A stretch of 64,000 nucleotides of DNA, taken from the NCBI GenBank assembly GCA_018433585.1, contig JAHDQW010000006.1, positions 1 to 64,000 on the forward strand, in the 5' to 3' direction. The position numbers were made by a program, and so were the translations under genes. Source of the stretch: Candidatus Praeruminimicrobium purgamenti (GTDB lineage: Bacteria; Elusimicrobiota; Endomicrobiia; Endomicrobiales; Endomicrobiaceae). Positions within the stretch are counted from its first letter, which is position 1, and every line of letters begins with the position of its first letter. The notes under the pieces are model-generated. The model worked only from the letters and a program-made list of their open reading frames with translations. It had not been told where the DNA came from and searched no databases. This document shows, one piece after another, positions 790 to 1,785 of this stretch.

Positions 790-862
790 TCAAAGACAGC
801 AAGAACCTTGCAGAAGGTTTAATGTTATACGGTTTACCTGTATATTCTTGCCGAGACTGAGT
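790..862 (+). promoter_or_regulatory. Ribosomal protein L10 leader (autoregulatory RNA)
   Basis: The segment resembles the L10 leader RNA found before rplJ-rplL in many bacteria: an AGACAGC start at about 794, a stem of GCAAGAA (799-805) with TTCTTGC (845-851), an inner hairpin AACCTT/AAGGTT (804-818), and the closing TGCCGAG signature at about 849-855. In known cases L10 (with L12) binds here and represses its own operon. Here the leader is followed by a terminator hairpin and then a radical SAM gene, with rplJ about 0.9 kb further on. A covariance-model search (Rfam RF00557) would settle it. Confidence 0.72.
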
Positions 863-884
863 TTATTATTAGCCTTTATTTTTT

Positions 885-913
885 GCTTCTCATTCTCGTG
901 AGAAGCTTTTTTT
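885..913 (+). terminator. Attenuator hairpin after the L10 leader
   Basis: An 8-bp perfect stem, GCTTCTCA (885-892) with TGAGAAGC (899-906), 6-nt loop, is followed by seven T (907-913). It lies between the L10 leader and the first gene of the operon, where a transcription attenuator controlled by L10 binding is expected. Confidence 0.75.
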
Positions 914-924
914 ATTTATACATT

Positions 925-1785
925 ATGAAAAAAAATTTGGAAGTTACGACGCATATAGGTTGTAAAGTTCTTTGCAAGTACTGCCCTCAAAGCAAAATTG
1001 TAGAAGCATACGGAAAATTAAAATCTAAAAACGTTATGACTTTATCTGATTTCAAAAAGATATTGTTAAACGTCGACAATAAGGATACGAAACTTATTTT
1101 CGCGGGTTTTTCAGAATGTTTCTTAAATAAAGATTCTGTCGACATGATAATACATGCTTGCAGACAGGGTTTTAAAATTGATATTTTTACGACGGCAGTC
1201 GGTCTTACAAAAGCTAAAATTTTAAAAATGAAAAAAGCTGGCGTTTCTTTTTATGCCGTTGCTTTTCATCTTTTTAAATCGGATAGATTTTTTAAAAAAG
1301 ACAAATTTTATAAAACGGTTGAATTTTTTAAAAGCAATATAGAAAGCAGGGTTTGTAAAGTAGTTGAGGTCAGAAAAGTTTTTTCAAGAGCAGGTTCTTT
1401 GTTTAAGGTTGATAAAAAACCGGGAAAGTTAGTTTGTTTGAATAATTTTGTTTATCAAAATGTTGTTTTGCCTAACGGTGATTTGTTTTTATGCTGCAAT
1501 GATTTTTCTTTAAAGCATAAATTAGGCAATTTGTTTGAAAATCATAATTCTTCAAAGAAAATAGAAAGCGAAAGAAAAAAAATAGTAAGTTTGATGAAAA
1601 AGGAAGATTCTGATATAGCGTGCAGGTTTTGCGAAATATCTTCCTGTTTTGACAAAAACAACAATATAAGATTCGGCACAAATAAAGATTTTTTAGAAAA
1701 AGACGATAGATTCAAAGATAAGATTGAAACCGTTAATAAATTAAAGCAGAAAATAAAAGAGAAAATAAAGAAGGAGAATATATAA
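925..1785 (+). CDS. Radical SAM/SPASM-type protein of unknown substrate
   Basis: The protein (286 aa from the ATG at 925) begins with a CxxxCxxC radical SAM motif (C-KVL-C-KY-C, residues about 14-21) that would hold a [4Fe-4S] cluster and bind S-adenosylmethionine. The C-terminal half has a SPASM-like arrangement: LPNGDLFLCCND, a GNLFE turn and CRFCEISSC, binding auxiliary clusters. The tail is lysine-rich. A longer reading from TTG at 883 would start inside the attenuator stem, so ATG 925 is preferred although no clear ribosome binding site precedes it. The gene ends 1 nt before rplJ, and the rplJ ribosome binding site lies in its last codons, so the two are co-transcribed. Substrate unknown; peptide or protein modification is only the usual theme of SPASM proteins. 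Confidence 0.8.
   Translation: MKKNLEVTTHIGCKVLCKYCPQSKIVEAYGKLKSKNVMTLSDFKKILLNVDNKDTKLIFAGFSECFLNKDSVDMIIHACRQGFKIDIFTTAVGLTKAKILKMKKAGVSFYAVAFHLFKSDRFFKKDKFYKTVEFFKSNIESRVCKVVEVRKVFSRAGSLFKVDKKPGKLVCLNNFVYQNVVLPNGDLFLCCNDFSLKHKLGNLFENHNSSKKIESERKKIVSLMKKEDSDIACRFCEISSCFDKNNNIRFGTNKDFLEKDDRFKDKIETVNKLKQKIKEKIKKENI

Follow-up and report, generated by a model that had tools for sequence, protein, structure and literature searches.

The gene order 23S-5S-L10 leader-radical SAM-rplJ-rplL-rpoB-rpoC, found on the forward strand of a contig of Candidatus Praeruminimicrobium purgamenti, raises the question of why a gene for a radical SAM enzyme stands between an L10 leader and rplJ. A preliminary description of the window (here, the whole 64-kb stretch of DNA that was analysed) offered two answers, namely that the enzyme could modify a ribosomal component or that the gene is an insertion using existing transcription. 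No paper dealing with this locus, or with genes located between an L10 leader and rplJ, was found in a literature search that left most subscription journals outside its reach.

A radical SAM gene is located between an L10 leader and rplJ

All elements were found in the places that the preliminary description had given them, with one gene between the L10 leader and rplJ:

1–513, + strand: 3′ end of the 23S rRNA gene (RF02541); the window begins within this gene
620–736, + strand: 5S rRNA gene (RF00001, 100 bits)
745–788, + strand: 14-bp hairpin (stem 745–778) followed by AAAATTTTTT, between 5S and leader
772–921, + strand: L10 leader (RF00557; 117 bits with the family covariance model R1, this leader being among the 25 sequences from which the model was built)
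799–851, + strand: predicted L10-binding (anti-antiterminator) hairpin (alignment and covariation of 25 leaders, comparison with Bacillus subtilis)
852–898, + strand: predicted antiterminator, CGAGACUGAG (852–861) with CUCAUUCUCG (889–898) (pairing and energy)
885–913, + strand: predicted attenuator, i.e., terminator hairpin (885–906) and U-tract (907–913)
925–1785, + strand: radical SAM gene, 286 aa, probably BtrN-like (twitch)
1787–2308, + strand: rplJ (L10)
2347–2727, + strand: rplL (L7/L12)
2777–2806, + strand: perfect sigma-70 consensus TTGACA-18-TATAAT, between rplL and rpoB

The radical SAM ORF begins just 3′ of the U-tract of the terminator, and a single base separates its end from rplJ, in agreement with its description as the first gene behind the attenuator. 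Since identity with the sister species runs from residue 1, the start is set at 925; position 790 lies inside the leader.

That an L10-type leader precedes this gene was borne out by a search with RF00557, which matched 772–921 over the full model with 51.5 bits (gathering threshold, 44 bits; E 2.5e-5 for the 64-kb window). The alignment behind the family leader model, built from 25 leaders of the Endomicrobiaceae and its order, contains two-sided, pairing-preserving changes in 8 of 21 consensus pairs; pair 29–98, for example, is UA in 15 and CG in 10 of the 25 sequences. Within the L10-binding hairpin, GCAAGAA (799–805) pairs with TTCTTGC (845–851), followed by an inner stem and an unpaired UAA at 820–822. 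The antiterminator forms 9 of 10 pairs at −11.6 kcal/mol (family-wide shuffled mean, −6.2; sd, 2.6), and by sequence and energy it and the intrinsic terminator are mutually exclusive. Sequence comparison confirms 772–921 as a real L10 leader with a predicted attenuator. A few weak additional matches of the leader model away from rplJ (G007:C1:53404-53548, G306:C18:8539-8657, and G307:C47:8526-8654; E 1e-4 to 1e-3) may be due to chance.

In the rplJL attenuator of B. subtilis (RF00557; Yakhnin 2015, PMC4538822), the UAA hairpin, antiterminator, and terminator follow each other in the same order, and experiments demonstrated that L10(L12)4 stabilises the first hairpin, leading to termination (PMC4538822). 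By analogy, we infer that the window leader works in the same manner, through L10-dependent termination. In both organisms, the position immediately 3′ of the terminator can hold the start of an ORF: in B. subtilis, this is a short ORF whose translation increases rplJL expression about 2-fold, an effect that depends on Rho (PMC4538822), whereas in the window a 286-aa enzyme takes the place of the short leader peptide. Furthermore, unlike in B. subtilis, an rRNA operon lies upstream and no separate promoter is visible, and attenuation is here predicted from sequence.

The arrangement recurs in a sister species

The identical order 23S-5S-leader-radical SAM-rplJ-rplL was found in an independent assembly from another species of the genus, “Endomicrobiaceae bacterium STD2_57” (G001, JAQVBD010000031.1), the leader of which scores 51.6 bits with RF00557. 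The radical SAM proteins of both genomes share 71–72% identity, starting from the first residue. Between the two species, dN/dS of the radical SAM gene is 0.13–0.18 (compared to 0.05–0.14 for rplJ), with about 1.0–1.4 synonymous changes per site; by this comparison, the gene is under purifying selection. Since an independent assembly has the same order, dN/dS is that low, and the leader reaches 117 bits, chance or an assembly quirk can be excluded. A search of 341 Elusimicrobiota genomes revealed no third clear ortholog (2 of 341 carry one), the next-best matches being 37–41% identical over partial length only. Therefore, within present sampling, the gain appears specific to the genus of the window, the only one in which a radical SAM gene was seen behind an L10 leader, and the leader-radical SAM-rplJ arrangement is carried by two genomes only.

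A further claim, that 23S-5S in place of rplK-rplA is peculiar to this locus, had to be abandoned, because a comparison of rplJ loci found 23S-5S before rplJ to be common across the Elusimicrobiota, and rplK and rplA of the window genome (G000; 1.86 Mb, 20 contigs) are located on another contig (C11). On C11 (L152, 1401–8423), rplK-rplA are followed by carbamoyltransferase-like and glycosyltransferase-like genes as well as two different radical SAM genes, all named by eye. At loci from other Elusimicrobiota classes (L103–L114, e.g., L106 and L113), a 240–290-aa exported, beta-barrel-like gene of no assigned family is found 1–87 nt before rplJ, both standing behind 23S-5S; the family leader model did not find an L10 leader at these loci. 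Within the order to which the window belongs, an exported gene of this kind stands before the leader. Homology between this phylum-wide exported gene and the genes inserted before rplJ in Endomicrobium was not detected using phmmer.

Read-through from the rRNA operon probably feeds the leader

Genomes without upstream rRNA genes mostly have a TTGACA-17-TATAAT-like promoter with 0–1 mismatches ahead of the leader. In genomes with 5S 50–72 nt before the leader core, including the window, the best promoter match has at least 4 mismatches. Since these rRNA-adjacent relatives lack the clear sigma-70 promoter that others have, the simplest reading is that transcription probably enters the leader by read-through from the rRNA operon and that the attenuator sets how much passes. 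The strong hairpin at 745–788, which is either terminator-like or an rRNA-processing stem, is a point against this reading: together with its T run, it argues for at least partial termination before the leader, and if rRNA transcripts stopped there, a separate, unseen promoter would be needed. In STD2_57, the stem is kept and the T run is broken (AAAAGTTTTG). By eye, comparable stems were seen in G001, G005, G007, and G017, all with 5S close upstream.

An internal promoter driving rplJ was rejected, as the best match within the radical SAM gene (9/12) is at chance level. With a real leader, a gene in first position, and no good internal promoter, the straightforward expectation from the sequence is that L10 would co-regulate the radical SAM gene with rplJ and rplL. 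Good Shine-Dalgarno sequences precede rplJ and rplL, with that of rplJ lying within the end of the radical SAM gene. The latter has none, and therefore its translation is probably weak. rpoB has its own perfect promoter (2777–2806), which may uncouple the RNA polymerase genes from rplJL.

The enzyme resembles the twitch radical SAM enzyme BtrN

The label “radical SAM/SPASM” given previously to the 286-aa protein holds for its first half. PF04055 (Radical_SAM) matches with 36.3 bits (cut-off, 29.5; E 8e-9), the CxxxCxxC motif for the SAM cluster is present as C13-x3-C17-x2-C20, and the structural model contains a partial TIM barrel. SPASM (PF13186) remains just below its cut-off (21.3 compared to 21.5 bits), and the kept cysteines of the auxiliary domain (C171, C190, C233, and C236, plus C191) are too few for the two auxiliary clusters of a full SPASM protein, so that this label was rejected in favour of a single-cluster twitch enzyme.

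The AlphaFold model (pLDDT 91) has BtrN as its best fold match in the PDB (rank 1, E 5.9e-10, about 20% identity). Furthermore, the subfamily profile matches BtrN over its full length at 5e-12, with C171, C190, C233, and C236 aligned to BtrN cysteines. BtrN itself oxidises an aminocyclitol and, as a twitch enzyme, has one auxiliary cluster with four cysteines (PMC9012708). Model and profile indicate that the window enzyme is likewise a BtrN-like twitch radical SAM protein with one auxiliary cluster, sharing fold, profile, and four aligned cysteines with this butirosin biosynthesis dehydrogenase (PDB 4M7S, 4M7T). With respect to the reaction, the oxidation of 2-deoxy-scyllo-inosamine, the likeness is one of fold only, at about 20% identity; in addition, BtrN belongs to the butirosin cluster, whereas the window enzyme is not part of an antibiotic cluster.

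Relatives occur in viral contigs and beside glycosyltransferase genes

While a contig scan with the two orthologs alone returned nothing, adding two distant relatives to the query revealed 48 relatives in genomes and 317 in viral contigs. In the tree, the two Endomicrobiaceae proteins group with the viral protein L235 (100/98) and then with L236 and L237 (97/90); the contig of L236 carries a terminase. PHROGs contained no family for the window protein. The GC content of the radical SAM gene (0.287, compared to 0.364 for the window) fits horizontal gain, and the gene was probably acquired from a lineage that is likely carried mainly by phages. Since the closest viral relative is only 41% identical, a phage source rests on present sampling.

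Members of this subfamily (e.g., L235–L237, L245, and L193) align with the window protein over the full length and share the motifs CPQ, FxGFxE, SRAG, LPNGD-CC-D-KH-GN, and CRxCE. A GT2 glycosyltransferase is encoded next to L235 and a GT9 next to L237, the phage member L245 is fused to an FkbM methyltransferase, and the relative in G291, from another elusimicrobial lineage, is surrounded by what looks like a glycosyltransferase cluster. Thus, the subfamily is elsewhere FkbM-fused or located beside glycosyltransferases, whereas in the genus of the window it stands behind an L10 leader. No glycan gene adjoins the radical SAM gene of the window, and it is from the neighbours and fusions of its relatives, and from the fold, that the enzyme is predicted to have, probably, a surface glycan or glycan precursor as its substrate, reacting at a sugar or a sugar-like moiety. 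L245, L261, L281, and other viral contigs encode long single-chain proteins combining an N-terminal domain without a Pfam name with this radical SAM domain, and forms of roughly 844 aa also include the FkbM methyltransferase.

The interval between leader and rplJ is a recurrent insertion site

With the family leader model and an L10 profile, leader and rplJ were both located in 44 Endomicrobiaceae genomes, revealing a median leader-rplJ distance of 58 nt, with 15 of the 44 exceeding 250 nt. By comparison, none of 92 Lachnospiraceae exceeded 250 nt (maximum, 195 nt; Fisher p 7e-9, a strength that is overstated since relatives are not independent). Six unrelated types of cargo gene occupy the interval in Endomicrobiaceae:

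G000 and G001: radical SAM gene
G005: two paralogous membrane ORFs (89 and 84 aa)
G006: membrane protein and 45-aa ORF
G013: 107-aa exported protein
G017: 46-aa lipoprotein-like ORF
G018 and G035: 302–314-aa protein with signal-like start

Apart from the paralog pair of G005, blastp revealed no relationship among these types; signal peptides, lipobox, and membrane spans were assigned by visual inspection. Remnants of the 302–314-aa gene are recognisable in G293, G299, G305, G306, and G307, reflecting decay in Endomicrobium, and in G297 and G301 the interval is long and no recognisable gene was found. Since contents differ within single genera (G006 compared to G016, G017 compared to G007, and G013 compared to four others), cargo gains or losses are recent. 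Endomicrobiaceae repeatedly insert unrelated, mostly envelope-type genes between the L10 leader and rplJ, which is the stronger finding here.

Cargo gene, ribosome modifier, or shield

The explanation that we favour, and hold to be rather probable as a whole, is that a cargo gene of phage-borne origin, encoding a glycan-type enzyme, was taken into an L10-autoregulated rplJL operon and is expressed by read-through under L10 attenuation. The alternative of an enzyme that modifies the ribosome or another part of the translation machinery (L10, L12, or 23S/5S rRNA) and owes its operon position to this function draws on its place as first gene behind the L10 leader, beside 23S-5S and rplJL, in two species, and on RlmN, the only ribosome-modifying family listed from NCBIfam, which appears as a weak match far below threshold (19.7 bits; cut-off, 290); RimO gave no match in the family-model search. 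However, clear orthologs occur in 2 of 341 genomes of the phylum, whereas L10 was found in 57 of the 60 genomes searched for it. When 33 family members were aligned, only two columns, both trivial, set the L10 of the genus apart, and no column did so for L12; the KCGC motif of L10 is also present in relatives without the enzyme, so that a ribosomal substrate was rejected for want of any further enzyme-linked site. Moreover, the subfamily is known from phage and glycan rather than ribosomal contexts, and the other cargos of the interval are membrane or exported proteins. We therefore consider a ribosome-modifying role very improbable, contrary to the first suggestion of the preliminary description. 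Its second suggestion, an insertion using existing transcription, fits better, with rRNA-operon read-through as the probable source of that transcription, and most likely the enzyme has no ribosomal substrate.

The ORF could also chiefly do, at greater length, what the rplJ leader peptide does in Bacillus: by being translated, it would shield the transcript from Rho, and the enzyme would matter less for its placement. The Rho-dependent effect of about 2-fold in B. subtilis (PMC4538822) and the ORFs that several relatives keep just behind the attenuator are in line with this. However, purifying selection has preserved the catalytic cysteines along with the entire fold, neither of which a shield would require, the radical SAM gene lacks a Shine-Dalgarno sequence, and most relatives have a short interval with no ORF, which makes a mere shield a poor candidate. 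Slightly more credible, but still unlikely, is a neutral hitch-hiker that landed by chance, with an internal promoter driving rplJ and L10 control of the enzyme having no role. Differing contents in close relatives (G007 and G017, G016 and G006) and decay of cargo in Endomicrobium would be expected of such genes, but dN/dS of 0.13–0.18 across about 1.0–1.4 synonymous changes per site, the fully kept leader and attenuator, and the lack of an in-gene promoter above chance speak against it.

According to the favoured cargo-gene explanation, RNA polymerase would read through from the rRNA operon into the leader, where free L10(L12)4 would stabilise the 799–851 hairpin, block the antiterminator, and cause termination near position 913. 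With L10 in short supply, transcription would continue through the radical SAM gene, rplJ, and rplL, and the enzyme would therefore be made when ribosome assembly is active. The radical SAM gene would probably be translated weakly, with rplJ using its own Shine-Dalgarno site, and the enzyme, a twitch radical SAM oxidoreductase of the BtrN type, would have as its target a sugar or sugar-like moiety of a surface glycan or of a glycan precursor.

Implications for the Endomicrobiaceae

BtrN provides a structural anchor for an uncharacterised, phage-rich, and glycan-associated subfamily of radical SAM proteins. For the family as a whole, we tentatively raise the possibility that the interval couples the expression of cell-envelope genes to ribosome supply, acting as a platform through which the envelope would follow growth rate via free L10, with the cargo being swapped and the switch kept. 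The cargo meant here would, equally tentatively, comprise outer-membrane-like proteins, lipoproteins, membrane proteins, and the putative glycan-modifying radical SAM enzyme. L10 leaders are known to control rplJL as closed feedback switches, and here, one lineage repeatedly opens this unit to foreign genes, a phage-type radical SAM enzyme gene among them. Placing foreign genes under the L10 switch makes it testable whether a free ribosomal protein may serve as a growth-rate signal for unrelated genes.
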